A DNA stretch of 20,828 nucleotides from positions 1 to 20,828 of IMG/VR virus record IMGVR_UViG_3300022204_000019. The stretch is one strand, 5' to 3'. The notes under the pieces were generated by a model that was not told the DNA's origin, ran no database searches, and saw nothing but the letters and a program-made list of their open reading frames with translations. The position numbers and the translations under genes are program-made. Positions 1 to 16,686 of this stretch are shown in pieces (within the stretch, counting starts at the first letter, position 1; every line of letters begins with the position of its first letter). This stretch comes from a virus.

Positions 1-2874
1 CAGGTGCGCCCGGTTGACGTTCTTCTGCCGGCCTTGGCCCGCGGCTTCCACCTGCATCGAGACCGGCAGCGACTCCACGTCGCAGGTGAACGGCAGCCCG
101 ACGTGCGCCACCGTCGCGTAGTCGGACAGCGAGATGGACCCGCCGGTGACGGTCAGGGGCTCGATGGTCGGATGCTTGCTCGAGCTGTTCGACCAGACGG
201 CTGTCACCGTCTCCCCCTCCAGGTATCCGAGACCCGTGATCACCCGAGCCCCCCAAGCCCACGGGGACTGCGCTGTGTGCAGCATGCTCGAAGGGATGTC
301 GGTTTCCAGTCGTGCGGTCAGCTGCGTCGGCGAGACGAAGGCTGTCACGCGCATGCGGTAGTCGACGCCGCCGGACGTGACGAACAGCACGCCGCCCACG
401 TCGAGCGCAGAGAACGCGATGCTGCTCGCGGTGACGGTGACGGTGCTACCTTTGGTCGTCTTGCCGATCAGGTTGAGCGTGATGCCAGCCGCGGGGGCCG
501 CCCCGTCGTAGCTGTCGCTTGCGTCCACCCTCTTCGCATCGAGGATCGAGTCGTAGTCGATGCGCCCCAGGCGCTCGATGGTTCGCAGTGTCGAGCCGTT
601 GACCTGGCGCTCGACCGCGATGTAGACGCGGTCCTCGTCGTCCTCTGGCAGGACACAGACCGACGTGATCGGAGACACTCCTGCCAGCGTCGCGGTCGAG
701 TGCTGTGCCCACGCGCCCACCTGCTCCTCCGGCACGTAGGTGAACGACAGCAGCTTGCTGCTCGAGGAAGGGAACCAGCACACCGGCACGGGCGCCTTCT
801 GGTAGGCAAGGTCGAGTAGTTCGTAGGTGTCGAACAGGTGAGCGGCGCGCAGCGACACGTCACCGGTCGAATAGCTCTGCTGCTGCCACTGGAACCCGAG
901 CTCGCGAACGCGTCCACCGCGGGCGGCGCAGTAGATCAGGCTGCTGTTGATGATCGCCGGCTGCACCATCGATGCGCCGACGTAGCTCTGAGGCCGAATC
1001 GAGATCGTCGACGGAGTGATGGCGTCGCTGTTGATGCTCGTCGCACGCCACTCACCCGACGCAGTCAGGATCAGCAACTCGCCAAGCGTGACGACGTGCC
1101 GGATCGTGTGGGCCTGCGTCGATGCGAAGGTGAACCGGATGCGGTCGTCGTCGACCGCGGGGATGCGGTAGCTGAAGTCGTAGTCCCTCGAGCTGCGCGA
1201 CATCCACACTGTCTGCGGCTTGAGCAGCGTGCCGGCCAGCACGAGCCGCTGCTCGAACTGCGCGATCGCCCGCGGCTTGAACGTGGCCGCCACGTCGGAG
1301 TCCTGCAGAGGCGGCGTAGCCTTGAAGTCGGGACCGATGTTGTCATCGGTGAACGTCAGGTCTTCGGTCTCGCCGATGAAGCCGTAGAGCCCGTTCTCCT
1401 CGCGGTAGATGAAGTAGCGCACCGCGCCCGATACGGCGTCCCAGGTCAGCACGTTCTCCGCGCCACGCGCCTCGAGCACGTTGTCCGCGACCACCTCGCC
1501 GGATGCCGGACCCTCGATGTCGTCCTCGTCGACGGCCGAGACCTTGTAGGTCTGCTGGCGGCGTGCGCCGGGTGAGGCGCGGTAGAGGTTGGCCACAGAT
1601 GATACGCCGGGTGATGGGCCAGCAGCTGACGCCACGTCCGCCCAGCCACCGGGGCCGAACTCACGCTTCAGAGTGAAGTTCTGGGCCGTGTTGTAGAGCC
1701 CGGTCACGACGTAGTAGTTGTCGGCAATCAGGGGGCCGCTGGTAGCCGACTCGCAATAGAGACCGTCCCCGACAGCGAAGGGGCAGTCGGACGCCAACTT
1801 GAAGACCGCCTGGTTTGTGCCTGTCCCGGTCAGAACAGCGCCGCTGTAGACCGTGCGGGTCTGGAACTGCTCGCCGCGGTTCTCGGCGACGGCAAGGTTG
1901 GTCGGAGCCGTCAAGTCAGAGCCGAACGACGCCGGCTGGAACGTCCACCGCGTGGCGCCGAGCCTGCTCAACTCGTAGAGGACGTGGTCCTCGTGCGCGA
2001 CCTTCATCACGTCGGCCTTCTGACCCGTGTGTAGATCCGGCAGCTGCGCCGCGGTGTAAGGCGTCGGGATCGTCAGCACGCCGTCGCCGGTCTGCAGATA
2101 CCACTTGTTGGCGCCGTTGCCGTTGTTGGGGAATGTGTCCCCGACACCCTGCGTGTGCGCCTCTTTGCAGTAGTAGACGCCAGGGTTGACGCCGATCCAG
2201 TAGACCAGGTCTCCCGGCACATACGAGTCGGTGTTGCCTGCCTGCCACTCGGTTGTCGAGGCCGCGATATCGTCCTGCAGCAGCACCCGCAGGTAGCCGG
2301 TGTTCTGGCTGGTGATGGCGATAGCGTTGGCGACGAGACCGGTCGCAGCCAGCTCGAGATAGATCGATCTGCTGTCCTTGACGATGGCGTAGTAGGTCGT
2401 GGCCCGTGCGAGATTGCCGGGCAGATTGGCGCCGGTTCCAGTCAGCCTGATCGCCGTCCCAGTCGCGATGCCGTGCCGGTAGCCGAACGTCAGCCACGCG
2501 CTGCCGCCGGCGATGCCAACGACCACCGCATCGCTCGCCTGCTCGCCGACATCGTAGACGCGGGAGTAGAGCAGCGTGCCGCCCAACGCGTGCAGACGGA
2601 CGTAGCCAGTCGACTGCGCGATGCTGTAGCCGAACTCTGCACAGTAGGACTGCCCCGTCGAGTAGACGAATGGCAGCAGGTTGGGGTTGACCTCACCGAA
2701 CACGCGCTGCGTGTATTCGGTGCCCGGTCGGGTGATCAGCGGCCCCTGCGGCGTCGGCAACCAGTTGGCGATCCTCGCGGCGCCGTTCGCATAAGGCCGT
2801 GCGTCAACGCGTGCGCTCATCTCTGGGGAGATCTCCCCACCGTTGAACGCGACCTGGATCGTCCTCTGGAGCAT
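1..2874 (-). CDS. Tail nozzle (tail tubular B-like) protein, partial
   Basis: 958 codons are visible and the gene runs off the left edge without a stop. The N-terminus F-N-G-G-E-I-S-P-E-M-S-A-R-V-D, A-N-W-L-P-T-P-Q-G-P and R-P-G-T-E-Y is the classic opening of podovirus nozzle proteins. These extend the tail tube below the adaptor. Later marks are S-G-E-W-R-A-T-S (606-613), I-T-P-S-T-I-S-I-R-P-Q-S-Y-V-G-A (619-634) and A-A-R-G-G-R-V-R-E-L-G (650-660). Insertions include two beta modules (about 114-193 and 345-420), a CBM5/12-like stretch (210-260) and an Fn3-like domain (about 440-525). GGAGG 10 nt upstream selects the ATG at 2874, 3 nt after the fusion gene's stop. It already exceeds T7 gp12 (794 residues), consistent with the extra domains. 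Confidence 0.9.
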   Translation of the reverse strand, partial: MLQRTIQVAFNGGEISPEMSARVDARPYANGAARIANWLPTPQGPLITRPGTEYTQRVFGEVNPNLLPFVYSTGQSYCAEFGYSIAQSTGYVRLHALGGTLLYSRVYDVGEQASDAVVVGIAGGSAWLTFGYRHGIATGTAIRLTGTGANLPGNLARATTYYAIVKDSRSIYLELAATGLVANAIAITSQNTGYLRVLLQDDIAASTTEWQAGNTDSYVPGDLVYWIGVNPGVYYCKEAHTQGVGDTFPNNGNGANKWYLQTGDGVLTIPTPYTAAQLPDLHTGQKADVMKVAHEDHVLYELSRLGATRWTFQPASFGSDLTAPTNLAVAENRGEQFQTRTVYSGAVLTGTGTNQAVFKLASDCPFAVGDGLYCESATSGPLIADNYYVVTGLYNTAQNFTLKREFGPGGWADVASAAGPSPGVSSVANLYRASPGARRQQTYKVSAVDEDDIEGPASGEVVADNVLEARGAENVLTWDAVSGAVRYFIYREENGLYGFIGETEDLTFTDDNIGPDFKATPPLQDSDVAATFKPRAIAQFEQRLVLAGTLLKPQTVWMSRSSRDYDFSYRIPAVDDDRIRFTFASTQAHTIRHVVTLGELLILTASGEWRATSINSDAITPSTISIRPQSYVGASMVQPAIINSSLIYCAARGGRVRELGFQWQQQSYSTGDVSLRAAHLFDTYELLDLAYQKAPVPVCWFPSSSSKLLSFTYVPEEQVGAWAQHSTATLAGVSPITSVCVLPEDDEDRVYIAVERQVNGSTLRTIERLGRIDYDSILDAKRVDASDSYDGAAPAAGITLNLIGKTTKGSTVTVTASSIAFSALDVGGVLFVTSGGVDYRMRVTAFVSPTQLTARLETDIPSSMLHTAQSPWAWGARVITGLGYLEGETVTAVWSNSSSKHPTIEPLTVTGGSISLSDYATVAHVGLPFTCDVESLPVSMQVEAAGQGRQKNVNRAHL

Positions 2875-2877
2875 GGC

Positions 2878-5800
2878 TTAGCGCCTCCACGGGTAGTCGT
2901 CGCGTCGCTCCTGCTTGCGCTTCGTCTTGGCGTCGTGCTTGCTGGCAACGCCCAAGGCTGCGCGCATCCGGTTCTCGGCGATCTGCGCCTGCCGGCTACC
3001 CTCTTCGCCCTTGATCAGCGGGCCGGCGAGCATCGAAGCCAGATACCACGACAGCGCCTTGACGAACGATGCCGAGAACTTCGTCGTGTCCACCACCCGC
3101 GTCGTGTAGCGCATCGAGGCGTTGGCCTCGTTGCTGAGCAGCACGCGGTCGCCCTGGCTGTCGAGCTCGATCGCATACGGCACCGGCTGCCGCGTGGTGC
3201 CCTCCCAGTAGTCGTCCGGCGCGTTTGGCGGCAGGATCGAGATCGTGTCGAGCCAGTCATCCGGCAGGAGGTAGGCATAGTCCCACTGCGTGACCGTGTC
3301 TTCCTTGGTCGTGGTCTCGAGCGTGATGCGTCGCGTGGCCCACTCCCATCGGTGCATCTCGAGCAGACCGTCGCGGGCAAGGTCGTAGTATTGCCGGCAC
3401 AGTTCTGCCTGACGCGTGTCGTCGTCCAGCGTGACCAGACGGGCGGTGTCCCCGAGGTGCGCCAGAGCGAGGTTGCAGATGTCCACTTCGTCACGACCGA
3501 CGCGCACGATCCGCTCCCATGCATCGAAGATGCGGTTGCCGAGGATGTTCATGGCGCGGCCCGTGTAGTGGACCGTGTCCTCGTCGAAGCCGTAGAGCTC
3601 TGCCTTCTGCTCCAGACCGTCGCCGGCCTCGACCCAGCGAGCGTATGGATCGGCTTCGTGCTCCGCCTTGATCGCCTCGCGCACGGTCGTCGCGTAGTTG
3701 CCGAATGACTCGAGCGGGATCGGCTGCACCCACGGGATCTTTGAGGCGTCCCCAGGCCACAGACCACGATCCTTGATCGCCTGCCGCACGGCAGCCTTGA
3801 ACTGCTTCAGGTTGCGCCCGTAGCTGTTGGCCAGCTCCTCGTAGGTCGCGTCCTCTTCGCCCTGGATCCAGGTCACCAGTTCCACCTTGCCGGTGTTGCC
3901 CTCGCGCTTCAGCGTCAGCACCAGAGCGTCGAGGAAGTCGAGGAACACGGCGAAGCACCCAGCCGGGTCCGACTCGGACCAGCTGATCTGCTGCTTCAGG
4001 TCGAGCCAGCCGAAACCGTTCACATCGGCGATGCCGGTGGCGCTGCCGTCGATCACGCCGCCTGGGATCACTTCCTTGTGGCCAAGAGACGTGCCGCCGA
4101 ACGCGAGGTTCAGGACGTAGACCGGCGTGCCGAGGTAGTCGTGCATGCGCACGCTGGTCGACAGCACGCTGGACGCTCCACCTCTGCCGGCGATCGATGG
4201 GCCGAAGAACGGCTGGTAGCGACCGGGCAGGTTGACCTGATTCGCGTAGTTGAAGCCGGGTGGGTAGGGGTTGCCGTATCCGCTGCTGGTCGTGGCCACG
4301 GCGTAGACCGTCGACGACGAGCCGGGGAAGAACATCGCCGCATCGAGCGTGGCACCTCCGGCAGGCGCCGAGATGTCGATCGCCGACCCGCCACGCGAAG
4401 CCGCCAGCTGGTAGCGGAACCCGTCGCCGAGAGGTCGCACGTAGTAGGTCGTGCCCGCCGTCAGACCCGATGGCAGCGTGTCGCGCAGCAGGATCGGGTA
4501 GTCCTTCTCGAGGTTGGTTGCAGACGACGTCACGATGAAGTCGACCACGTCGGTCATGGTGTGCGTGCCGGATCCAGTGTCGGCCGCAACGATCGCGGCG
4601 CCGCCGCGTGTGTAGCTCAGCTGCACGGTGGTGGGCGTGCGGTTGACGACCCAGTAGGTCTTGCCAGTCACGAACGGCGACGGCAGGGTTCCGGTGGTCG
4701 TCAGCTGGACCGGGTCGTTGGATGCGAGCGGGGTCGCACCGCTGGACATGGTGAGCGTTGCGCTGCTGCCGGCGGCCGTGAAGTCGTCGTTGACGGCGGG
4801 GCCGTAGCTGGCAGAGAGCACGTCCACCTGCGGCGAGTCGACGTTGGTGCCGTCGTAGGTCTCGCTGAAGTAGATGGCGCCGCCGGCGTTCTGCGTCACG
4901 TAGTAGTCCTTCCCGATTTCCAGTCGGTGCGGAAGGATCGCATACGGGTCGCGACTGAACAGCTGGAACGAACTGCCGATCGGCGCGTTCAAGTTCAGGG
5001 CAATGCCAACTTCGCCCAGGCTGTTCGGCGTGTTGGGGCCGATGTTCACGACGTTGGCCACATGGCCAGACGGGTGCGCACGACCCTCAAGCGGCGACCA
5101 CGGCAGGCACTCTGCAAACTTCTCGAACGGCACCGGCGTGCCGTCGTCGAGTGGAGGTGGCTCGATGACGAACACGTCGCCGTCTTGCGGAACGGTTGGC
5201 CACTCTCCTTCGTGATGCACAAGCATCTTGTCCTGCGCGTTGGTGCTGTCGCTCAGGTATTCGCAGTGCGCCAGGTCGACGGTCTTGCCCACGTTCGCGC
5301 TGTTGCTCGCGCTGATGCACCGCGCACGCAGGCCGCTCAGGCTGCCTTCGATGCGCTCGCGGCGCCTGATGTAGGACGTGTAGAACACGTCTGTGCTGGT
5401 GGTCGACGACACCTCCTCGCCGCCAGGAGACGTGCTCACGTAGAACGAGAACGGATCCTCGATGCGCTCGAAGTCGATGCTTGTGCCACCGGTGAGAGTC
5501 AGCAGCGGCCCTTCGTGCGTCTCGGACAGCTGCAGCTGCGTCATGGACCCACTCGCCGTTCGCCGTGCGAAGTAGACCACGCCCGCCCGGATCTCAGCAG
5601 GAAGATCGCCTCCGGTGACCAGGATGCGCTCGTTGTCGCCGAGGCCGTGCTCGATGGCCACGGTGAGCACGCTCGATAACACACTGGCCGACAGAGTCTG
5701 GGATACTCCGCGCTCGACCTCGGCTCGCCGAGTGACGTAGTAGACCGTGCCTCGAGCATCGAAGACTTCGGGGAGGTAGCTGGTGACCGCGAACAGGTCG

Positions 5801-7380
5801 AATGCCGGGTCAACGACAACGGCAGATCCACCCTTGGTCTCCGATACCGTCAGCACACCACCGCCCAACGTCAGCACGTAGTATGGCTGGTTCGCCACGA
5901 GTGGCGATGGCAGCGGCTGACTCGGCAGCAGAGGCTTGAACGTCACCCGATCTCCGGGTAGCCACTCGGCTGCGCCGACAAAGATCAGGTTCGACGATGC
6001 GGTTGGCACAGTAGCGACAACCAGCGGCTGAAACGCTGCCACGGTTGGGACCGACGCTGTGGCATCGGTGAAGCTGACGATCTGCCCGACCTCGAACAGC
6101 ATGCCGGGGCATGTGATCTTGACGGGGCGCGACGAGCTCGAGGTGCCCGTCATGCGGATGCGGCAGTTGCCGGCAGTCCCCTCGCCGACATCGGCCAGCC
6201 CACCGAACCAGGTGCGGAACAACATCGGTCCAGTCGTGCTCGCAGTGAAGCCAGGAACGACAGCACCGTCGCCGGCCACGACCGGGTAGTCGAACTGCTC
6301 TCCGACGGATGGCGCCGGATTCAGGAACGGCGGGTGGACACTCAGCGACAGCTTGCCGCCACCCGTGCTACCAGGAACGCCGTACGCCGCACGGTGCGTG
6401 GTGCCCGTTCGACGGCGCGTGATGGTGCCGAGCTCGCATCGCTCGAGCAGGAACGGTTCCGACGACGACGCGAACGACACAGCCGCTCGAGCAACCTGCG
6501 CGGTCTGAGGCCACGCCTGCAGCTGCAGCGTCGAGCCGGACACGTTGACCACCAGCCACACCTGAGCGTTGTCCTCGACCTCGGCCGGCAAGTCGGGGAT
6601 GGGCTTCACGATGTCGAACGAGATCGACCCGCTGCTGACCAAGTCGATGACGGCGCCGCTGCTCTCCTCGCGCACACGCAGCTCGGTCGTGCTCACGAAC
6701 TCGGCCCAGTAGTTGGTCTCGCTCTCGATGCCCAGGGCGCCAGGGATCGTCGGGCCGTCGATCGTGAACACGTCGTTGGTCACCAGCCCGTGCGGCGTCG
6801 CTGTCGTGATCGTTTCCGTCGCGTAGTCGATGCTTGAGACGGCGATGCGGTCGTTGACGCGCAGCTTGCGTGCGACCACCAGGTCGACGCCGTCGACGAA
6901 CGAGGTCGCCGAATCCATCGTGACGGTCTGCCCCGCGACGCTTGCCACGCGCTCCCGCAGCTGGCCGCCGTTGGCTTGGTGGTTGGTCACGAACCGCCAT
7001 GGCAGAGGGCGGGACTGCGCCGTGATCTCTGCTCGACCTGGGTAGCAGGTGGCGAACGTGTCGAACGTGTTGAAGCTGGGCGTCGGGTTGTAGAGCGTCA
7101 GGAAGCGAGTGCCGCTGATCGCCCGGCCTCGAATGTCGACCTCTTGGAACGATCCGGCCACATACGAACCGCGCTCGTCGATCGTCGGGCCACCGGCGAA
7201 CTTGCTGCTCAGCCGGAACTTCTCCTCCTTCGACCCCTGCGAGTAGCCAGGAGTGAAGCCACGATTCGTTGCCGCAGACCCGATCGCAAGCCACGGGTGA
7301 ACGTCCTGCCACGACTTGAGATCACCGATCGGGCTCGCGTTCGACTGGCCGATCTGGATGACGATGCTGCGCTGTGCCAT
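2878..7380 (-). CDS. SGNH/sialate-O-acetylesterase-like enzyme fused to a gp11-like tail adaptor
   Basis: The 1500-residue product joins two functions. The N-terminus has IQIGQSN with the nucleophile Ser13 (block I of SASA-type SGNH hydrolases). The remaining blocks come a thousand residues later: AFGGTS (1093-1098), WIQGEED (1171-1177) and D1268-T-V-H1271. This family removes O-acetyl groups from glycans. About 900 residues lie between the first two blocks and include roughly six related beta modules (near residues 178, 470, 568, 791, 874 and 944). Residues about 1292-1500 match the T7 gp11/P22 gp4-type adaptor that forms a ring under the portal: D-I-C-N-L-A-L-A-H-L-G-D, then A-E-L-C-R-Q-Y-Y-D-L-A-R-D-G-L-L-E-M-H-R-W-E-W-A-T. 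No stop or frame break is seen at the join. The next gene starts 3 nt beyond the stop. Confidence 0.88.
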   Translation of the reverse strand: MAQRSIVIQIGQSNASPIGDLKSWQDVHPWLAIGSAATNRGFTPGYSQGSKEEKFRLSSKFAGGPTIDERGSYVAGSFQEVDIRGRAISGTRFLTLYNPTPSFNTFDTFATCYPGRAEITAQSRPLPWRFVTNHQANGGQLRERVASVAGQTVTMDSATSFVDGVDLVVARKLRVNDRIAVSSIDYATETITTATPHGLVTNDVFTIDGPTIPGALGIESETNYWAEFVSTTELRVREESSGAVIDLVSSGSISFDIVKPIPDLPAEVEDNAQVWLVVNVSGSTLQLQAWPQTAQVARAAVSFASSSEPFLLERCELGTITRRRTGTTHRAAYGVPGSTGGGKLSLSVHPPFLNPAPSVGEQFDYPVVAGDGAVVPGFTASTTGPMLFRTWFGGLADVGEGTAGNCRIRMTGTSSSSRPVKITCPGMLFEVGQIVSFTDATASVPTVAAFQPLVVATVPTASSNLIFVGAAEWLPGDRVTFKPLLPSQPLPSPLVANQPYYVLTLGGGVLTVSETKGGSAVVVDPAFDLFAVTSYLPEVFDARGTVYYVTRRAEVERGVSQTLSASVLSSVLTVAIEHGLGDNERILVTGGDLPAEIRAGVVYFARRTASGSMTQLQLSETHEGPLLTLTGGTSIDFERIEDPFSFYVSTSPGGEEVSSTTSTDVFYTSYIRRRERIEGSLSGLRARCISASNSANVGKTVDLAHCEYLSDSTNAQDKMLVHHEGEWPTVPQDGDVFVIEPPPLDDGTPVPFEKFAECLPWSPLEGRAHPSGHVANVVNIGPNTPNSLGEVGIALNLNAPIGSSFQLFSRDPYAILPHRLEIGKDYYVTQNAGGAIYFSETYDGTNVDSPQVDVLSASYGPAVNDDFTAAGSSATLTMSSGATPLASNDPVQLTTTGTLPSPFVTGKTYWVVNRTPTTVQLSYTRGGAAIVAADTGSGTHTMTDVVDFIVTSSATNLEKDYPILLRDTLPSGLTAGTTYYVRPLGDGFRYQLAASRGGSAIDISAPAGGATLDAAMFFPGSSSTVYAVATTSSGYGNPYPPGFNYANQVNLPGRYQPFFGPSIAGRGGASSVLSTSVRMHDYLGTPVYVLNLAFGGTSLGHKEVIPGGVIDGSATGIADVNGFGWLDLKQQISWSESDPAGCFAVFLDFLDALVLTLKREGNTGKVELVTWIQGEEDATYEELANSYGRNLKQFKAAVRQAIKDRGLWPGDASKIPWVQPIPLESFGNYATTVREAIKAEHEADPYARWVEAGDGLEQKAELYGFDEDTVHYTGRAMNILGNRIFDAWERIVRVGRDEVDICNLALAHLGDTARLVTLDDDTRQAELCRQYYDLARDGLLEMHRWEWATRRITLETTTKEDTVTQWDYAYLLPDDWLDTISILPPNAPDDYWEGTTRQPVPYAIELDSQGDRVLLSNEANASMRYTTRVVDTTKFSASFVKALSWYLASMLAGPLIKGEEGSRQAQIAENRMRAALGVASKHDAKTKRKQERRDDYPWRR
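3505..3518 (-). promoter_or_regulatory. Candidate internal translation start for a free adaptor
   Basis: The minus strand carries GGGAG, six bases, then GTG (first base 3507), in frame with the fusion gene. It lies exactly where the esterase ends and the adaptor begins, 20 codons after the catalytic His1271. A product from here would be 209 residues, close to T7 gp11 (196). This would allow both a fused and a free adaptor to be made. GGAG followed by GTG can occur by chance in GC-rich DNA. Confidence 0.4.
4345..6850 (-). repeat. Diverged tandem beta modules in the esterase insert
   Basis: About six copies of a 60-80-residue protein module lie in the insert between SGNH blocks I and II. The copies are near 6600-6850, 5775-5975, 5455-5680, 4815-5010, 4555-4760 and 4345-4550. 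The clearest copy reads D-P-V-Q-L-T-T-T-G-T-L-P-S-P-F-V-T-G-K-T, then Y-W-V-V-N-R, V-Q-L-S and G-G-A-A-I. The shared marks are an L-P turn, a G-x-x-Y-[YW]-V strand, an L-S strand and G-G-x-A-[IV]. DNA identity between copies is low, so the expansion is old. Boundaries are approximate. Confidence 0.6.
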
Positions 7381-8288: not shown

Positions 8289-9017
8289 TTACGGGTTCCA
8301 GGCCGGCATGGGGGCGCCGGTCGCGTGATGGACCTTGCCGCCGGCACCGCCATCGGCCGAGATCCAAGCCTTGACCACACCGCCGTCGAGGGTCGCGCTC
8401 GGAGCGAAGCCGGCGACGTAGTAGCGCGGGGTCGGGATGGCCGACTGGAACTGCGGCGGGTTGATCGCCACGGTAACAGTCGAGCCGACGCTGAAGCAGG
8501 CGTGCGGGAGGTAGCCTGACGATCCGATGACGATCGGAGCCACGGTGAACGTCACCGACGAATCGCCGGTTACGGGAGCGGCGGAGCCACCGTTACTGGT
8601 GCTCAGCTGGAACGTGTTCGCGGTCTTGTTGATCACGAAGTAGTCCTCGGCAGTCAAGTAGCCCGACGTGCCGGCGGTCGTGATCTTGATCCACTGACCG
8701 TTCTGCAGACCGTGGTTGGTGAGAGTGACCACATCGCCGGCGTTCGCGGCCGAGCCGACGATGCCGGCGTTCTCGCCCGGTGCATATCCGTCGGCATAGC
8801 CAAGAACGCGAACTTCCATGGTCGCTCCGACCGTCGCCGAGCTGACCGCGGTCGTGATCTCGCCGACATGCACGAACAGCTGCTTGCCACCCTGCAGCAT
8901 GCTTCCAGCCAGACGGTCGATGTAGTCGTCCGTCAGGGTGAGCGCGCTGATGGTGTCGAGGTCCTGCCCGAGGCCGTCCTGGCCCGTGAGCAGGTTGAAC
9001 TTGTCCAAGAGAGTCAT
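8289..9017 (-). CDS. Cement/decoration-like capsid protein with inserted beta module
   Basis: The protein has 242 residues. It follows the capsid gene, where BPP-1-type phages encode a small beta cement protein that stabilises the shell from outside. Residues 30-75 and 160-242 look like the split cement fold, ending in the motif AWNP shared with the next gene. Between them (about 87-160) lies a module with T-L-T-N-H-G-L-Q-N-G, I-T-T-A-G-T-S-G-Y-L-T-A-E-D-Y-F-V-I-N and T-F-Q-L-S. This type is otherwise seen in tail proteins and appears in the next two large genes. The ATG at 9017 has AAGGAG 7 nt upstream. The insert would stick out from the capsid surface if the fold assignment is right. Confidence 0.75.
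   Translation of the reverse strand: MTLLDKFNLLTGQDGLGQDLDTISALTLTDDYIDRLAGSMLQGGKQLFVHVGEITTAVSSATVGATMEVRVLGYADGYAPGENAGIVGSAANAGDVVTLTNHGLQNGQWIKITTAGTSGYLTAEDYFVINKTANTFQLSTSNGGSAAPVTGDSSVTFTVAPIVIGSSGYLPHACFSVGSTVTVAINPPQFQSAIPTPRYYVAGFAPSATLDGGVVKAWISADGGAGGKVHHATGAPMPAWNP
8538..8759 (-). other. Inserted beta module inside the cement-like gene
   Basis: This stretch encodes roughly residues 87-160 of the cement-like protein. It carries the signature H-G-L-x-x-G, a T-T-x-G turn, L-T-A-x-x-x-Y-F-V-I-N, N-T-F-Q-L-S and G-G-S-A. The neighbouring paralogue lacks it, so it appears to be an insertion in the cement fold. Related modules occur six times in the esterase-adaptor gene and twice in the nozzle gene. 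Confidence 0.6.
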
Positions 9018-9049
9018 GTGTGTGCTCCTTGTGTGGAGAGGGGCGCCGC

Positions 9050-10108
9050 TTACGCGACGACGGCCTCGGTGTTGACGATGGCGTCGCTGCGGTAGCAGGG
9101 AATGCCGTTGATCTTCATGAACCGCTTCGGGGTGCCGAACTGGGTCACACCCTGCTCGAAGGTCACAGCCGAGCTGTGCGTCTCGAGGCCGATTCGGTTG
9201 AGGGCGCTGTGGACCGTGCGGTTGCAGTAGATCGCCGCGTTGACCATGCCGAGGTCTTGGATGCGGTAGGTTGCGTCCGTGGCCGAGTGCAGCAGGTTGG
9301 CGTAGGTCGTGATCGACGCGTTGCTGCCGGGCAGCTGCGCGCCGGTCAGACCGGAAAGCTCGGCCACGTCGATGTTGCAGACGCGCACGACGTAGCGCCA
9401 GTCCTTGACGACCAGACCCATCGACCACTTGAAGTGGTCCTGGTAGGCCATCATCTTGCCGGTGTAGTTGCCGGACGCGTCGAACACGTCGACGATCCCC
9501 TTGCCCAGATCGTTCTGCACGAGGCCGGCGCTGCTGCCCTTCGGGAAGGTGCCGAACACGGTCTCGTCACCCCAGCCGACGATCCAGAGCGAGGTTTGCG
9601 CGTTGGAAGTCTCGGCGCCGGACGCCTTGACGATGTTCTGCCCGTTCGCGGCGCTCGAGTCGCTGAAGCGCGAGCTGAGCCCCATGAACTTGTTCGAGTT
9701 GACTGCGCTGTTGGCGTAGAAGATCGACGACGCCATCTGGTTGTTCATCGCCGACAGACGCAGGCGCGCCTGACCGAGACGGAACACGCCGAGGTCGTTC
9801 TGCAGTTCCGCCAGGTCCGAGTCGACCTCGCTGAACGTCTGCAGCATGCCGATGTCCTCGGTGATCTGCGCGGTCGTGCCCTTCGAAGGCATCACGCCCT
9901 CGTTGAACGACCGCCAGTAGACGGCCGGCAGACCGGTCGCAACCGTGCAGGTGTGCGAGGTCGCGTCGTTGGCCTCGACGAACGTCATGTTCTCGAGAAT
10001 GTCGTTTTGCTGGGAGAGCAGGTTGGCGATCGCCGCCGCGCTGCCATCGGGATCACGGGTCTTGGCCCAATCGGCCAGGGTCAGGTTGGTGTCTGGAACT
10101 GCTGCCAC
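9050..10108 (-). CDS. Major capsid protein, BPP-1 Bbp17-like
   Basis: The 352-residue shell protein matches the BPP-1-type capsid family. The N-terminus L-T-L-A-D-W-A-K-T-R-D-P-D-G is followed by T-G-L-P-A-V-Y-W-R, G-V-M-P-S-K-G-T-T-A-Q-I-T-E, S-E-V-D-S-D-L-A-E-L and F-R-L-G-Q-A-R. Further on are W-G-D-E-T-V-F-G-T-F-P-K-G and D-W-R-Y-V-V-R-V-C-N-I-D. It starts with GTG: an in-frame TAG lies two codons upstream, leaving no other start. Only a weak AGG stands about 10 nt before it, which is surprising for the most abundant virion protein. Translational coupling to the scaffold may help. Two cement-like proteins follow. Confidence 0.95.
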   Translation of the reverse strand: MAAVPDTNLTLADWAKTRDPDGSAAAIANLLSQQNDILENMTFVEANDATSHTCTVATGLPAVYWRSFNEGVMPSKGTTAQITEDIGMLQTFSEVDSDLAELQNDLGVFRLGQARLRLSAMNNQMASSIFYANSAVNSNKFMGLSSRFSDSSAANGQNIVKASGAETSNAQTSLWIVGWGDETVFGTFPKGSSAGLVQNDLGKGIVDVFDASGNYTGKMMAYQDHFKWSMGLVVKDWRYVVRVCNIDVAELSGLTGAQLPGSNASITTYANLLHSATDATYRIQDLGMVNAAIYCNRTVHSALNRIGLETHSSAVTFEQGVTQFGTPKRFMKINGIPCYRSDAIVNTEAVVA

Positions 10109-11657: not shown

Positions 11658-11980
11658 GGGTTCTTTCCTCGGCCGCGTGCGTTGGCTTCGTCGATCGCCG
11701 TCTTCATGGCGACCATGTTGTCGTTGAGGGCCTGCATGCCGGTCAGCATTGCGTGATGTGACTCGGCCTCGGCAAGCTCGAACTTGCGGAAGCTGTCGAC
11801 CGCGATGACCAGCGTCGCGATGGACTGCTCCAACTGTTTGTCCCGCGACTCCATCAGCCGGTCGCTGCGCGACATCAAGGCTTTGACGGTCCATATGCCG
11901 GCACTGACCAGCGCCGCAAGCAGTGCCAGGAGAGCTGCTTCCAGGTTGCCAGGGCCAGCCTGCATCGCGTCGAGGATCAC
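11654..11980 (-). CDS. Single-span membrane protein with coiled coil (holin-like candidate)
   Basis: The 108-residue protein has one strong membrane segment (about residues 12-34, N-L-E-A-A-L-L-A-L-L-A-A-L-V-S-A-G-I-W). A Lys/Arg-rich turn and a long amphipathic helix (about 40-100) follow. The charges (acidic N-terminus, basic just after the span) favour N-out/C-in by the positive-inside rule. That fits some small holin-type or membrane-anchor phage proteins better than an inner-membrane spanin. The GTG start overlaps the fibre-gene stop (GTGA), and GGAG lies 6 nt upstream; an ATG five codons further in is possible. Its own TGA overlaps the lipoprotein ATG, so the two are likely coupled. A lysis role is possible but unproven. 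Confidence 0.65.
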   Translation of the reverse strand: MILDAMQAGPGNLEAALLALLAALVSAGIWTVKALMSRSDRLMESRDKQLEQSIATLVIAVDSFRKFELAEAESHHAMLTGMQALNDNMVAMKTAIDEANARGRGKNP

Positions 11981-14900
11981 TGCGGTCTCCAGTTCAGGGT
12001 GACGACTGCCTTCGGGTTCGTGGCAGCGGGGCCGGTCAGCACAATACGGTATTCGTCCCCGGCGGCGAACGCCACGTCAGCGGACCATGTGCCGGCGGTG
12101 ACCACCGCCAGGATGCCGGTCGCGCCCGTCGCGCCCATGGTCGGCAGCGGCAGCACCCAGGCCGACGTGCCGATGTAGGTGATCGCGCCGGCGCTCGACA
12201 TCGTCGGCAGCGGCAGCGTGAACGCAGCGGTGCCGGTGTGCGTGCCACTCGGGGTTGTCGCCGTGCCGCTCGAAGCCATCGTCGGCACCGGCAGCGACAT
12301 CGCGCTGGTGCCGGGGTGCGCGGCAACGCCGGCAGCGGTGCTGACCGGCAGCGGCAGCGTCCAGGCGGACGTTCCCGTGTAGGTCAGGTGACCGACGGCG
12401 GTGCTGGTGGGGAGCGGCAGCGTGAACGCTGACGTGCCAGTCGGAGGCCCGACATCCGGCATCCAGGGCAGCGTCGCCGCCCCGTATTCGTATGCGCCAG
12501 CATCCGGCGTCGACACGTCTCGCAGGTAGCCGTCAGCATCCACGCCGATCTGCGCCGGCAGCGGGATACCGCCAGCAGCTTGCGGACCTGTGCCAGCCGA
12601 CATGCGCAGGTTCATGTTGGCCTGCACAGCCACGCCGTTGTTGACGAAGTCCATCGTCGTCGTCGGCGTCATGCTGCTAACCGTGTCCAGCCCGGTCGTG
12701 GCCGCGACCCATGCCGCTAGCTCGTCGTTGGCGGTCGAGTTGCCTACCCAGTAGACGGTCTCGGCGTTTACGCAGCCGACGTGGTTGTAGTCGGCCGAGA
12801 GGAACTTGGCCTCGATCTGCGCTCTCGTCAGCGAGAGTGCGGAGATCCAGTAGACGGAATCGACGCGGCCGACGGTCGGGAAATACCCGACGCAGGCGTC
12901 GATCTGGAAGCCGGAGTCGTCGAAACGCGTTGCCGTGCCGGCGAAGGTCATCGCCAGCGTGCCACCCTGATAGCCGGTGACGTTCGCGAACATGCACTCG
13001 CGCAGCCGCACGCTGTGGAAGTCGCCTCCCGTTTCGTTGGTCGACGCCGCCATGTAGACGGACTGCGACATGACGCAGTTGATGAGGTCGAGCCTCGTCA
13101 CGTCGACCGTGTTGTTGCCGTTCTCCGCTACCGTCTTGCCAGCGTCAGCTTGGATCGTTACGCCACCGCCACGGAACTCGCAGTTGATGAAGCGCAGATC
13201 CTGCACCCACGCGATTCCGTTTGACGCCGCGTCGGCTGCGATACGAATGCCGAATCCACCGTCCGCCGTGCTCGTCTTGTCGACGTTGACCCAGGTTCCG
13301 TAGCGGAACGCTCCAGCGATCGTCGCCGCCGGGTCCATCTCGATGCGGCAGACCTCGACGTTATCGACACTCGTGCTGGTGAGACCGTAGACGTAGTGGT
13401 CGCCCCAGTTGTAGACGCGCATCCCCCGGTTCGAGTTGGTCGTCGGGAACGACACGTTGAGCAGCAGGATGTGCCGGCAGTATTTCATGCCGATCATCAC
13501 CCAGAACTCCGGGTCGGTGATCGCGCAGCCGACTAGCGCGATGAAGTCGCCGACCCCATCGTCTCGGTTGGCTGACGTGCTCGTGTCGTCGTCGCCACCG
13601 ATCGGGTCGTTCCACCCGTCGATCTCACAGTCGATCGCGGCTAGGTTCATCGCGGAACGCTGCCCACGCGTGCCGCCACCGCGTGCCGTGTTGATGCAAC
13701 GGTTGTTGGCGCTGCTGCCGCCTTGCAGACGCAGGCCCACGAGATGGCAGCCGCCGAAGTAGTTGCTGGTGCCGCTGTTGACGGCGTCGCTAGTATCAAG
13801 CCACGACAGGATCGGAATCGTGCTGACGGAGCCCCATCGCACGATGCGGACCATGCGGTCGGTCGTGCTGCCGCAGTCCCACGCTGACGCCGACGCCATC
13901 GCGTGTGTCTGGCCTTCCTTCACGAAGATGACGCCCACCTGCCCGGTGGTTACGTTCGTCTCCATGTAGGTCTTCGCCTCGGCCATGGTCGCGAACGGGT
14001 CTCCCTCCGTCCCGGCCGCGCCGCCGCCGGCCGTGTTGTCGACATAGCGAACGTGGTCGGCTGCCGTGTTCGCGGTGACGCTCCAGGTGTAGGTGACCTC
14101 GTTGCCGATGTTGCCGCCGCTGTCGATGAAGCGCACGGTGAGCTGGTCCCCATCCAGCCCCATCCACTCGAAGTTCATCGCGCCGTCGACAGAATGGATG
14201 ACGCCCTGGCCGGGCCGCACGATGCGCCACTGCCCGCCTGCGTCGCGGTCGGTGACGGCACCGCTGACAGGCGTCGAGCTTCGCAGATGGAAGCCGACTT
14301 GCTGGTGGCCGACGGCGTAGGTGCTCGCGGTCGTCGTCAGGCTTGTGATAACGCCGGCTGCTGTAGCTGTGCCGCTGGCTGTGCTGGTCGGGATAGGCAA
14401 CGTCCAGGCGGACGTTCCCGTGTAGGTCAGGTGACCGGCGGCGCTGCTGGTGGGTAGCGGCAGGGTCCATGCGCTCGCGCCGACGTAGGTCAGGTGCCCT
14501 GACGAAGCGACCGCCGGCAGTGGCAGCGTGAATGCACCCGATCCGGTGTGGCTTGCGCCGGGCGTCGTGGCCGTGCCGCTGGACGCCATCGTCGGCATCG
14601 GGAGCGTGATCGCGCTCGTGCCGGTGTAGGTCAGGCTGCCGCTCGCCGCGCTCGTCGGAACCGGCAGTGTGAACGCAGACGCGCCCGTGTGCGCGGCGAC
14701 GCCGGCTGAACTGCTGGTCGGCACCGGCAGGGTGAACGCCGACGCGCCGACGTAGGTCAGGTGGCCGGTTGCCGACGAGGTCGGGACTGGCAGTGTGAAT
14801 GCAGACGTGCCGGCCTTCGCCGCGACGCCAGTAGCCGCGCTCGTCGGGACCGGAAGCGTCCATGCGCTCGTGCCGGTATGCGCCGCGACGCCGGTCGCTG

Positions 14901-16686
14901 CGGATGTCGGAACCGGCAGCGTGATGGCTGACGTGCCGGTGTAGGTGAGGTGACCGCTCGCCGCGCTCGCAGGCAGCGGCAGCGTCATCGCAGACGTGCC
15001 GACGTAGGTCAGGCTGCCGGTTGCGCTGCTGGTCGGCAGCGGCAAGGTGATGGCACTCGTGCCCGTCTTCGTGGCGTTCGCCGCCGTGCCGGTCGCTGAC
15101 GAGGTCGGCAGCGGCAGGGTGAACGTGCCCAGACCCCAGGTGATCTGCGGCAGGCCCGCAGGCACCTCGAACAGAACCTTCTCGACGACGAGCGCCCTCG
15201 CCGGCCCGCCGCCACTGCCGGTGCCGAACAGCTGAAGGTTGAGGTCGCTGTAGTCGGTGATCGCGTTCGCTTCGCCCGCACTAAGCGTGTAGGTGCTTTC
15301 GGTCTCGGTCGTGCCCGTCAGCGTCGCGGTGAGCCGACCTATCTCGGTGGTGCCCTGGCGCAGTGCCAGGACGGCGTCCATGTTCCGGGCAGCATCCACC
15401 CGCCACCGAGCAGTCAGGACGTGCCCGGTCGCCACCTCGGGGTCGGTCAGCGTCGGCAAGTCGAACGTGGCTGTCGTGGTCGTCGAGCCGTTGCCGACGC
15501 TGTCGCTCGTTATCTCGACGCCGTCACCGAGCGCCTCGGTGTCGTCGATCTTGCTCCATAGCGGCGTCGTCGTCCACGAGCCGGCGGCAGTGTCCGATGT
15601 CGGCTGCGCCTCCTGCGTCGACCCTGGCGTGTAGTCGGTGCCGATGCCGAACAGGCGCGGCAGCGGAAGCGTGAACGCGCTGGTGCCGGTAGCGCCTGTC
15701 GCCGCCGGCACCTCGAACGCGCCAGCGTCCGCAGTGCTGCGCGTCTCGCCGACCATGTCTGCCGCCGGCATTGCGCCGGCAGCCACGAAGTCAATCGGCA
15801 GGTTGTAGGTTGCGTTGTCCTGAAGCGAAAAGTCCTGGTTTGCTCCGTCCGTATACCAGACCCCGCTAGCGTTCGGAGTCCCACTGTCGTTGAACGTGGC
15901 GGCGGCGGATAGGCCAGTGACCGTGTCCCAGTTGGCGTTGTGCGTCGCGCTGCTGTCAGACGTGATGCAGTATTCGCTGTCGGCTACCCACGACCCAGTC
16001 GTTACCGATGTGGTCAAGTCCTCGTTGGTCGAATACGGATCGAACAGGCACCCGCGAGCCAGGACCGTGATGTTCGTATTCGTCGACCCCGTGCCAGACG
16101 ACACGATGCGGCTGTCCGAGAACGTGCATCCGCGGAATGTGACAGCGTCCCGCATCACGACGCTGCCGTAGTCGTTGAATTGCAGGGCGTAGCCGTCCGC
16201 GCCGTTGCCGTCGAACACGCAGTTGTCGACGTTGATGGTGACTAGTGTCGTCGTTCCGTTGAACGAGTTCTCCAGCAGGATCGACGGATTGCTACTCGTC
16301 TGGCCGAGGAAGAAGCACCGCTCGATCGTGACAACCTGAGCGTTGTCCGAGACGTTGTAGCCGTCGTATGCGCTTAGGACTCTCGTCGTCCCCGTCGACA
16401 CGAAAGAGATGTCGCGAAACGTCAGCGACAGCATGTTCTCGGGGCCGGGCCAGTCGATCTGGCTATCTGTTACCCGCGCCCCGGTCGTCGGGTCTCCGTC
16501 CTGTGCAGCGATGCCCTCGATGACAATTGCCGTGGTGGCATTCGTCCAACCGCTGATCGTGCAGCCTGTGTGGACTTGAGACTGTAGCTGCGCCGTCTCG
16601 GTGCCGTCGGACGAACCCTGGCGTGCAGTTTCCCATGCGGCCAAGTTCGCATAGTCGCCAGAACTGCCGACGGTATTGGTTGCCAT
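11977..16686 (-). CDS. Giant beta-helix fibre/tailspike candidate with TLPxP repeats
   Basis: The 1569-residue protein appears modular. Residues 1-330 form a right-handed beta-helix-like region with repeated I-x-x-C-x-F turns, closing in STADAGAFEV. One TLPLP repeat follows at about 334. Residues 350-512 look like a jelly-roll domain. Twelve TLPxP repeats (about 516-780) are followed by an Ig-like stretch and a second beta-helix region (880-1410) closing in DAGAYEY. Five more repeats (1417-1525) lead to a 45-residue beta tail ending NWRPQ. The two closings resemble the end of 'choice-of-anchor Q' beta-helix domains. Beta-helices are typical of tailspikes that bind or cut surface glycans, but I cannot identify catalytic residues. 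Its TGA overlaps the next GTG by 4 nt. Its location between portal and scaffold is unusual for a fibre. Confidence 0.75.
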   Translation of the reverse strand: MATNTVGSSGDYANLAAWETARQGSSDGTETAQLQSQVHTGCTISGWTNATTAIVIEGIAAQDGDPTTGARVTDSQIDWPGPENMLSLTFRDISFVSTGTTRVLSAYDGYNVSDNAQVVTIERCFFLGQTSSNPSILLENSFNGTTTLVTINVDNCVFDGNGADGYALQFNDYGSVVMRDAVTFRGCTFSDSRIVSSGTGSTNTNITVLARGCLFDPYSTNEDLTTSVTTGSWVADSEYCITSDSSATHNANWDTVTGLSAAATFNDSGTPNASGVWYTDGANQDFSLQDNATYNLPIDFVAAGAMPAADMVGETRSTADAGAFEVPAATGATGTSAFTLPLPRLFGIGTDYTPGSTQEAQPTSDTAAGSWTTTPLWSKIDDTEALGDGVEITSDSVGNGSTTTTATFDLPTLTDPEVATGHVLTARWRVDAARNMDAVLALRQGTTEIGRLTATLTGTTETESTYTLSAGEANAITDYSDLNLQLFGTGSGGGPARALVVEKVLFEVPAGLPQITWGLGTFTLPLPTSSATGTAANATKTGTSAITLPLPTSSATGSLTYVGTSAMTLPLPASAASGHLTYTGTSAITLPVPTSAATGVAAHTGTSAWTLPVPTSAATGVAAKAGTSAFTLPVPTSSATGHLTYVGASAFTLPVPTSSSAGVAAHTGASAFTLPVPTSAASGSLTYTGTSAITLPMPTMASSGTATTPGASHTGSGAFTLPLPAVASSGHLTYVGASAWTLPLPTSSAAGHLTYTGTSAWTLPIPTSTASGTATAAGVITSLTTTASTYAVGHQQVGFHLRSSTPVSGAVTDRDAGGQWRIVRPGQGVIHSVDGAMNFEWMGLDGDQLTVRFIDSGGNIGNEVTYTWSVTANTAADHVRYVDNTAGGGAAGTEGDPFATMAEAKTYMETNVTTGQVGVIFVKEGQTHAMASASAWDCGSTTDRMVRIVRWGSVSTIPILSWLDTSDAVNSGTSNYFGGCHLVGLRLQGGSSANNRCINTARGGGTRGQRSAMNLAAIDCEIDGWNDPIGGDDDTSTSANRDDGVGDFIALVGCAITDPEFWVMIGMKYCRHILLLNVSFPTTNSNRGMRVYNWGDHYVYGLTSTSVDNVEVCRIEMDPAATIAGAFRYGTWVNVDKTSTADGGFGIRIAADAASNGIAWVQDLRFINCEFRGGGVTIQADAGKTVAENGNNTVDVTRLDLINCVMSQSVYMAASTNETGGDFHSVRLRECMFANVTGYQGGTLAMTFAGTATRFDDSGFQIDACVGYFPTVGRVDSVYWISALSLTRAQIEAKFLSADYNHVGCVNAETVYWVGNSTANDELAAWVAATTGLDTVSSMTPTTTMDFVNNGVAVQANMNLRMSAGTGPQAAGGIPLPAQIGVDADGYLRDVSTPDAGAYEYGAATLPWMPDVGPPTGTSAFTLPLPTSTAVGHLTYTGTSAWTLPLPVSTAAGVAAHPGTSAMSLPVPTMASSGTATTPSGTHTGTAAFTLPLPTMSSAGAITYIGTSAWVLPLPTMGATGATGILAVVTAGTWSADVAFAAGDEYRIVLTGPAATNPKAVVTLNWRPQ
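12115..12440 (-). repeat. C-terminal TLPxP array: 5 tandem units
   Basis: Five further units of the same 21-residue repeat stand before the last 45 residues of the fibre candidate. They include one with the long TATTPSGTHT linker seen also in the central array. The unit at 12358-12420 is nearly identical in DNA to 14401-14463 in the central array, about 2 kb away. Confidence 0.85.
14350..15135 (-). repeat. Central TLPxP array: 12 tandem units of about 63 bp
   Basis: The coding repeat has the consensus G-T-S-A-[FWIM]-T-L-P-[LVIM]-P-T-S-[SA]-A-[TS]-G plus a five-residue linker that is usually HLTYT, VAAHT or SLTYT. Twelve units run in phase, mostly 21 residues (63 bp) each, with two longer linkers (one is TATTPGASHT). 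Unit-to-unit DNA differences are modest, so the array can recombine or change copy number. The Pro-rich strands probably make a stiff spacer between the jelly-roll and the second beta-helix of the fibre candidate. A single related copy lies apart near 15655-15690. Confidence 0.85.

Follow-up and report, generated by a model that had tools for sequence, protein, structure and literature searches.

A SASA-type esterase fused to the portal-ring adaptor of an uncultured short-tailed phage may form an enzymatic or glycan-binding arm at the phage neck

The window analysed here, the whole stretch of DNA under study, comprises the 20,828 bases of an IMG/VR virus record from an uncultured short-tailed phage. 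It contains, on the minus strand, a gene for a 1500-residue protein in which an N-terminal SASA-type SGNH esterase with an insert of ~1,020 residues is followed, without a linker, by a portal-ring adaptor of the Bbp14/gp11 type (Table 1). The initial annotation had assigned an esterase and an adaptor to one chain of the same extent and left the strand unstated. The open reading frame starts with ATG, has no internal stop codons and is open over 1522 codons, with neither a stop nor a frameshift at the join. The SASA family PF03629 matches residues 1156-1287 (E 2.5e-9; 37.5 bits against a curated cut-off of 24.8), and PHROG_394 (tail/adaptor) matches residues 1297-1495 (E 8.5e-41; profile positions 3-181 of 190). 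The nearest solved chain is 8ck1_E, 'Connector Protein' (Carin 1), over residues 1298-1461 (E 2.9e-17). The open frame and the Pfam, PHROGs and PDB matches confirm that both domains belong to a single chain. Pfam and PHROGs found in this protein no N-terminal attachment domain of the tail-spike or receptor-binding type with a trimeric beta-helix or fibre; unlike in a tail spike, the attachment part is the C-terminal adaptor.

Table 1 Features of the esterase-adaptor fusion gene and its surroundings in the window
Feature	Position	Strand	Residues and remarks
SASA-adaptor fusion gene	2878..7380	-	1500 aa, stop codon included
Block I, GQSN	7339..7350	-	residues 11-14; predicted nucleophile Ser13; GQS invariant in 6 aligned members
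Insert within esterase, between blocks I and II	4297..7305	-	residues about 26-1028
beta-module copy 1	6634..6792	-	residues 197-249
beta-module copy 2	5812..5955	-	residues 476-523
beta-module copy 3	5488..5649	-	residues 578-631
beta-module copy 4, partial	4837..4935	-	residues 816-848
beta-module copy 5	4582..4734	-	residues 883-933
beta-module copy 6	4369..4518	-	residues 955-1004
SASA/SGNH esterase, main part	3511..4296	-	residues 1029-1290; begins near NPYPPGFN motif
Block II, AFGGTS (oxyanion Gly)	4087..4104	-	residues 1093-1098; alignment
Block III, QGEED	3850..3864	-	residues 1173-1177; alignment
Block V, DTVH	3568..3579	-	residues 1268-1271; predicted Asp1268 and His1271; alignment
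Join, one predicted helix	3457..3561	-	residues 1274-1308; last helix of the esterase continues into helix 1 of the adaptor
Possible internal start (GGAG, 6 nt, GTG)	3505..3517	-	codon 1292; not conserved in relatives
Adaptor domain, Bbp14/gp11 type, PHROG_394	2881..3507	-	residues 1292-1500; profile, fold, identity
Nozzle protein, Bbp13-type, PHROG_376	1..2874	-	downstream; cut by contig end; 2 beta-modules
Major capsid protein, Bbp17-like	9050..10108	-	upstream synteny anchor

The catalytic blocks named in the initial annotation are all present. Aligned with each other, six divergent fusions have invariant blocks I, II, III and V, and a profile comparison matches the window esterase to the SASA-family structure 2apj (E 1.2e-5). 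The enzyme domain is predicted to remove acetyl groups from bacterial sugars. Block I, with the predicted nucleophile, lies on a separate N-terminal segment outside the Pfam SASA match. While its domain assignments, the fusion and the adaptor as a tether have stood, the initial annotation had missed this splitting of the esterase by the long insert.

The insert ranges from about 500 to 1,020 residues among seven full-length fusions, and the enzyme ends and the adaptor remain constant. It contains repeated beta-modules with the consensus HGLAVGDRIRFTSGTLPSGLVAGTDYYVRVVDSTGTIQLSATRGGSAITLTS. The window has six of them, mid-sized relatives have four to five and the shortest relatives scanned have two. 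The endosialidase beta-barrel profile PF12195 scored 30.9 bits against the insert modules in one relative (L200) and 17.7 in another (P0003), both below the cut-off of 35, and gave no match in the window insert. In an AlphaFold model of a complete fusion of 970 residues (L112), the insert is poorly modelled, with pLDDT mostly below 50; because of this low confidence, glycan binding by the insert is only a guess. The same beta-module was also observed in the nozzle protein and in a capsid-adjoining protein (8289-9017, in the frame 8289-9428), which suggests that these two proteins and the esterase insert may share one surface module in this phage.

The adaptor domain is 41-45% identical to free adaptors, e.g. 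Bbp14 of Bordetella phage BPP-1, and open frames do not exceed 249 residues in its 80 nearest viral homologues, which are free adaptors. The gene order of the window follows that of BPP-1: GNAT, portal, scaffold/protease and major capsid protein, then two Bbp16-region proteins, a Bbp15-slot protein, the fusion in the Bbp14 slot and the nozzle Bbp13. The adaptor therefore sits in its normal gene position, and the oddity is what precedes the adaptor domain. The fused contigs whose gene order was compared share the order of major capsid protein, small genes, fusion and nozzle. Seventeen of 18 contigs searched contain a single adaptor gene region, the fused one, which in one of the 17 is frameshifted into two pieces; the eighteenth is a chance pattern match. 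No second PHROG_394 adaptor was found in the fused contigs searched in full, three of which are 42-44 kb long, close to the genome size of BPP-1. The lack of any other adaptor can be stated firmly of the contigs and as probable of the genomes. Because of the shared gene order with BPP-1 and the lack of a second adaptor in the fused contigs, we take the fused chain to be the neck ring, and these observations also support the adaptor as the tether of the esterase.

Elsewhere in the window, a 1569-residue protein (11977-16686) with many GTSAFTLPLPTSSATG-type repeats is encoded between the portal and capsid genes. It has no family match in Pfam or PHROGs, and a homologue was observed upstream of the terminase in another contig (L180, 1349-3046). 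This protein is possibly a tail fibre or decoration.

An AlphaFold2 model of residues 1021-1500 (30 sequences) has a mean pLDDT of 74.8. The last helix of the esterase continues into the first helix of the adaptor, with block means of pLDDT of about 86-98 over residues 1274-1308. Since this high-confidence helix is continuous across the join, the two domains appear to be rigidly joined in the model. Foldseek matches the model to the adaptors 8ck1_E (E 1.6e-12) and T7 gp11 (E 7.8e-5), as well as those of LME-1 and PhiM1, which assigns residues 1292-1500 to the adaptor fold of helix bundle, beta dock and C-terminal helix. The same chain also matches 2apj (E 8.8e-3), and the model of the 970-residue fusion matches both adaptors and the esterases 1zmb and 2apj (E 7.5e-4). 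The join could in principle be cut during maturation, yielding a free adaptor and a separate esterase, and phages of this group encode a head protease (PHROG_458 match in L178). We consider such proteolysis very unlikely, as the predicted continuous helix without a linker is unlike a cleavage loop.

Another way to obtain two products would be translation from codon 1292. A free adaptor made from this internal start would then build the ring, and the long form would be a minor, sub-stoichiometric decoration or not part of the virion. In the window, the in-frame GTG has good Shine-Dalgarno spacing and lies seven codons before the adaptor core, and it is one of only five sites with a start and a Shine-Dalgarno sequence in the 1500-codon frame. 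A similar site is found in one relative (L298), and several relatives keep a methionine where free adaptors start (MGTSEVDIC versus MASEVDIC). However, among 16 fusions, the window included, eight lack any start codon in the 12 codons that precede the adaptor core, a start combined with a Shine-Dalgarno sequence near the join occurs in only two, and the chance of such a site near the join in the window frame, as a simple proportion, is about 4%, which is not negligible. A conserved internal start was therefore rejected as a feature of the family, and we regard the two-product explanation as unlikely. Since half of the fusions lack a start codon at the join, an obligate fusion is the better reading of the family's sequences, with a mixture of fused and free adaptor possible in the window. 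The initial annotation had envisaged up to twelve esterases around the neck; this figure may be an upper bound, because the internal GTG could yield some free adaptor.

The fusion is not confined to the window. Viral contigs were scanned with a DNA pattern that runs from the esterase His block into the beginning of the adaptor. This gave 41 loci, about sixteen of which carry the same fusion, be it complete, truncated at a contig end or frameshifted. Further fused loci came from two profile scans of viral contigs. Homologues with the same fusion, which the initial annotation had proposed to search for, are thus present in many independent viral contigs and form a family that it had not recognized. 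Fusions with both ends are 793 to 1449 residues long, with one further member of 742 residues (L306), compared with 1500 residues in the window. Exact-peptide searches of viral contigs gave no confirmed relatives, whether the query was the entire protein, its adaptor part or the capsid protein. Searches by tblastn with the window esterase and two related esterases gave no matches in 50,697 phage records, and three whole fusions compared with phage records matched by their adaptor ends only, among the matches listed. An adaptor-only profile search in bacterial genomes returned 29 loci, none with an esterase fusion.

It is hardly credible that an assembly or sequencing error has joined two genes. 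Many independent contigs, 31-43% identical to the window, have the same join, and both sides of it are under purifying selection, with dN/dS values of 0.054 for the SASA part and 0.046 for the adaptor between two closely related fusions (P0006 and P0007). Nothing favours an artefact beyond a single frameshift-ridden contig, and we rejected an assembly artefact since the fusion recurs in independent contigs. In the contig concerned (G008, locus L185), nearly every structural gene, the fusion included, is frameshifted, which looks like sequencing error rather than biology. Between P0006 and P0007 the inserts are 71% identical, with a dS of 1.13 versus 0.23-0.45 in neighbouring parts (0.23 in the adaptor); this pattern fits an exchange or a rapid change of the insert. 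Judged from these comparisons, the enzyme and the adaptor are conserved and the insert is fast-varying.

In the adaptor tree, leaving out four adaptors on long branches, which are free or C-extended, unites the fused ones in a single clade (99/97). With those four included, the free adaptor of ctVRi840 falls inside the fused clade on a long branch. In this Manatee Spring phage (L007, 5147-6303), we observed that tblastn similarity extends a few codons upstream of the adaptor start. No Pfam esterase was found in the three upstream genes tested. The free adaptor of ctVRi840 may be a former fusion that has lost its esterase, or its position may reflect long-branch attraction.

The initial annotation had also missed that long-tailed phages have the same esterase on adaptors of other, non-homologous kinds. 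An esterase-only scan gave 49 loci, all of which contain NP[YM]PPG[FW]N by construction of the pattern, so that recall is limited by the motif. A C-terminal connector is present in 48 of the 49 NPxPPGxN loci, and the exception (L311) is cut by a contig end. The partners are a podoviral adaptor in 32 loci (one frameshifted), an Ad1 of the phrog_477 type in 11, a gpW-like domain in four and an unnamed domain in one. The Ad1 partner is a domain of ~180 residues that matches PHROG_477 'head-tail adaptor Ad1' in all six loci scanned and Pfam DnaT_2 in all four scanned. Among the gpW-like partners, that of L234 matches PHROG_2545 'head-tail adaptor Ad1' (E 1.2e-6), and L307 was assigned to the group by BLASTP (E 1e-11). 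In two contigs with an Ad1 fusion (L279 and L275), the order is major capsid protein, small genes, esterase-Ad1, Hc1 and Neck1, with the tail terminator next in L279. A contig with a gpW-like fusion (L251) has the order terminase, esterase-gpW-like, portal, protease and major capsid protein. The unnamed domain (L278, identical to L233) occupies the C-terminal ~160 residues of a gene between the capsid and the Neck1/tail-completion genes. It has no match in phage or plasmid records, and its gene position suggests a fourth type of connector.

In an esterase tree of 30 representatives (18 with the podoviral adaptor, nine with Ad1, two gpW-like and one other, many of the 49 loci being near copies), the four partner labels require six changes. 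The 742-residue member with a podoviral adaptor groups with two Ad1 fusions (99/96). Tail fibre proteins of PHROG_4201 are also similar to the SASA part. The statement that the esterase is always fused to a connector holds only for the motif-defined set of 49 loci. From these data, we give about an even chance to a broader proposal, in which the NPYPPGFN-type SGNH subfamily would be neck enzymes that exist only as N-terminal passengers on a portal-adjoining ring. In both short- and long-tailed phages, these passengers would have moved repeatedly between non-homologous connectors, namely the gp11/Bbp14 adaptor, the DnaT_2 Ad1, the gpW-like Ad1 and one more. Their recognition insert would be swappable, and a lectin branch without catalysis would have been derived from them.

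A non-catalytic branch is indicated by substitutions in the catalytic blocks. Three members (L207-L209) have GQNN in place of GQSN together with a His-to-Tyr change, five others (L214-L217 and L312) have GQNQ, and the glycines of block II are lost in all of them. These Ser-to-Asn members form one derived clade (98/97) of the esterase tree, which retains block III, the fused esterase fold and the adaptor; Asp or His is additionally lost on different branches. The block II glycines are also missing in L308 and L218. On the simplest reading, binding without catalysis is enough for the arm to work in the Ser-to-Asn clade, and some family members probably bind only. Since one clade is catalytically dead by sequence, which had escaped the initial annotation, deacetylation cannot be all that the family does. 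It could be argued more generally that glycan binding or neck stability is what maintains the SGNH fold, so that the arm would be a lectin or a structural spacer with only incidental hydrolysis. The Ser-to-Asn clade, which has lost the oxyanion glycine and kept the fused fold, and the two members lacking block II glycines speak for this explanation, but the window and most of the family retain all catalytic residues across 29-42% identity, and the Ser-to-Asn members are a single derived clade. We therefore consider a purely binding or structural role unlikely.

We favour as likely a neck-displayed polysaccharide O-acetylesterase/lectin arm on the adaptor ring of a BPP-1-like podovirus, for which we infer the display, copy number, substrate, activity and contact of the insert with glycans. 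Adaptors of the gp11 type form a dodecamer below the portal and can dock tail fibres, as in SU10 (PMC9509320) and P-SCSP1u (PMC10575957), and SGNH domains of phage receptor-binding proteins can be active esterases that deacetylate surface polysaccharide (PMC13123978). In the fusion, the C-terminal 209 residues would assemble beneath the portal as Bbp14 and gp11 do. A rigid helix would tie this adaptor to the SGNH (SASA) esterase. The insert breaks the esterase fold shortly after the nucleophile, and this long, modular segment may be the variable, glycan-contacting part. Residues 19, 20 and 24 of the P-SCSP1u adaptor bond with the nozzle (PMC10575957), so the beginning of adaptor helix 1 should face the capsid and not the nozzle, which would place the esterase at the outer neck. 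There, the esterase would strip O-acetyl groups from the host capsule, O-antigen or exopolysaccharide before or during adsorption. Alternatively, the arm may merely bind glycans.

Comparisons with known systems place the window protein among the PHROG_394 adaptors such as Bbp14, T7 gp11 and 8ck1, which it resembles in sequence, fold and its slot between the capsid genes and the nozzle. Unlike the free adaptors of PHROG_394, whose frames reach at most about 300 residues among those read, it has 1,290 extra N-terminal residues. Phage polysaccharide-modifying enzymes are usually regarded as tail spikes or fibres. Tail spikes and fibres with SGNH deacetylase domains, such as G7C gp63.1 and the receptor-binding proteins of Klebsiella prophages (PMC13123978), share with the fusion the presumed removal of acetyl groups from surface polysaccharide, but they are separate, tail-attached proteins, whereas the window enzyme lies within the adaptor chain. 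At the neck, phi29 gp12* forms twelve collar appendages for host recognition (PMC6542822); unlike the fusion, these are separate, non-covalently attached trimers and, as far as known, not homologous to it. The adaptor ring is also the docking site of host-recognition arms in the long tail fibres of SU10 and T7, where the fibre is a separate protein, while the arm of the window is genetically fused (PMC9509320).

Adaptors with added domains or functions have precedents. The tail tubular protein A of Yersinia phage phiYeO3-12, a gp11-type adaptor, was reported to hydrolyse Red-starch, an earlier claim of an enzymatic adaptor; unlike the window protein, it has a single domain and no added esterase (PMC7060351). 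The adaptors of Vibrio phages 69E27.1 (L193, 2989-5241) and VP2 (BFVD Q6RCF4) were observed to carry extra surface-type, Ig-like domains in the same chain. In 69E27.1, the extension differs from that of the window in being C-terminal, with three Ig-like domains and a Gly-rich region, and no enzyme was found in it. We also observed a viral protein with adaptor similarity (A0A6J5LNM8) whose name refers to a ChiA1_BD domain. Carrying surface domains may be a general role of the adaptor.

Two unnamed viral UniProt entries in BFVD match the fusion, A0A516LTA4 over 472 columns at 39% identity and A0A516LMG1 at 35%, and both have the fold. As the first match spans 472 columns, the two-domain fold has already been deposited. 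No description of an esterase fused to an adaptor was found in the open-access literature searched. What appears to be new is that an esterase domain is fused to the adaptor and that one esterase has been used repeatedly by several unrelated rings.

These findings suggest that phages can hold a surface enzyme or a sugar-binding domain at the neck, an arrangement that has received little notice. If the proposal is true, an essential structural ring doubles as an enzyme holder in several unrelated phage types, and genes labelled 'tail tubular protein A' or 'head-tail adaptor' contain host-range enzymes that have escaped notice. With one esterase captured repeatedly by different rings close to the portal, the neck would become a place where host interaction can be tested. 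As the family includes both intact and dead versions, it would also provide a natural experiment that separates binding from catalysis.
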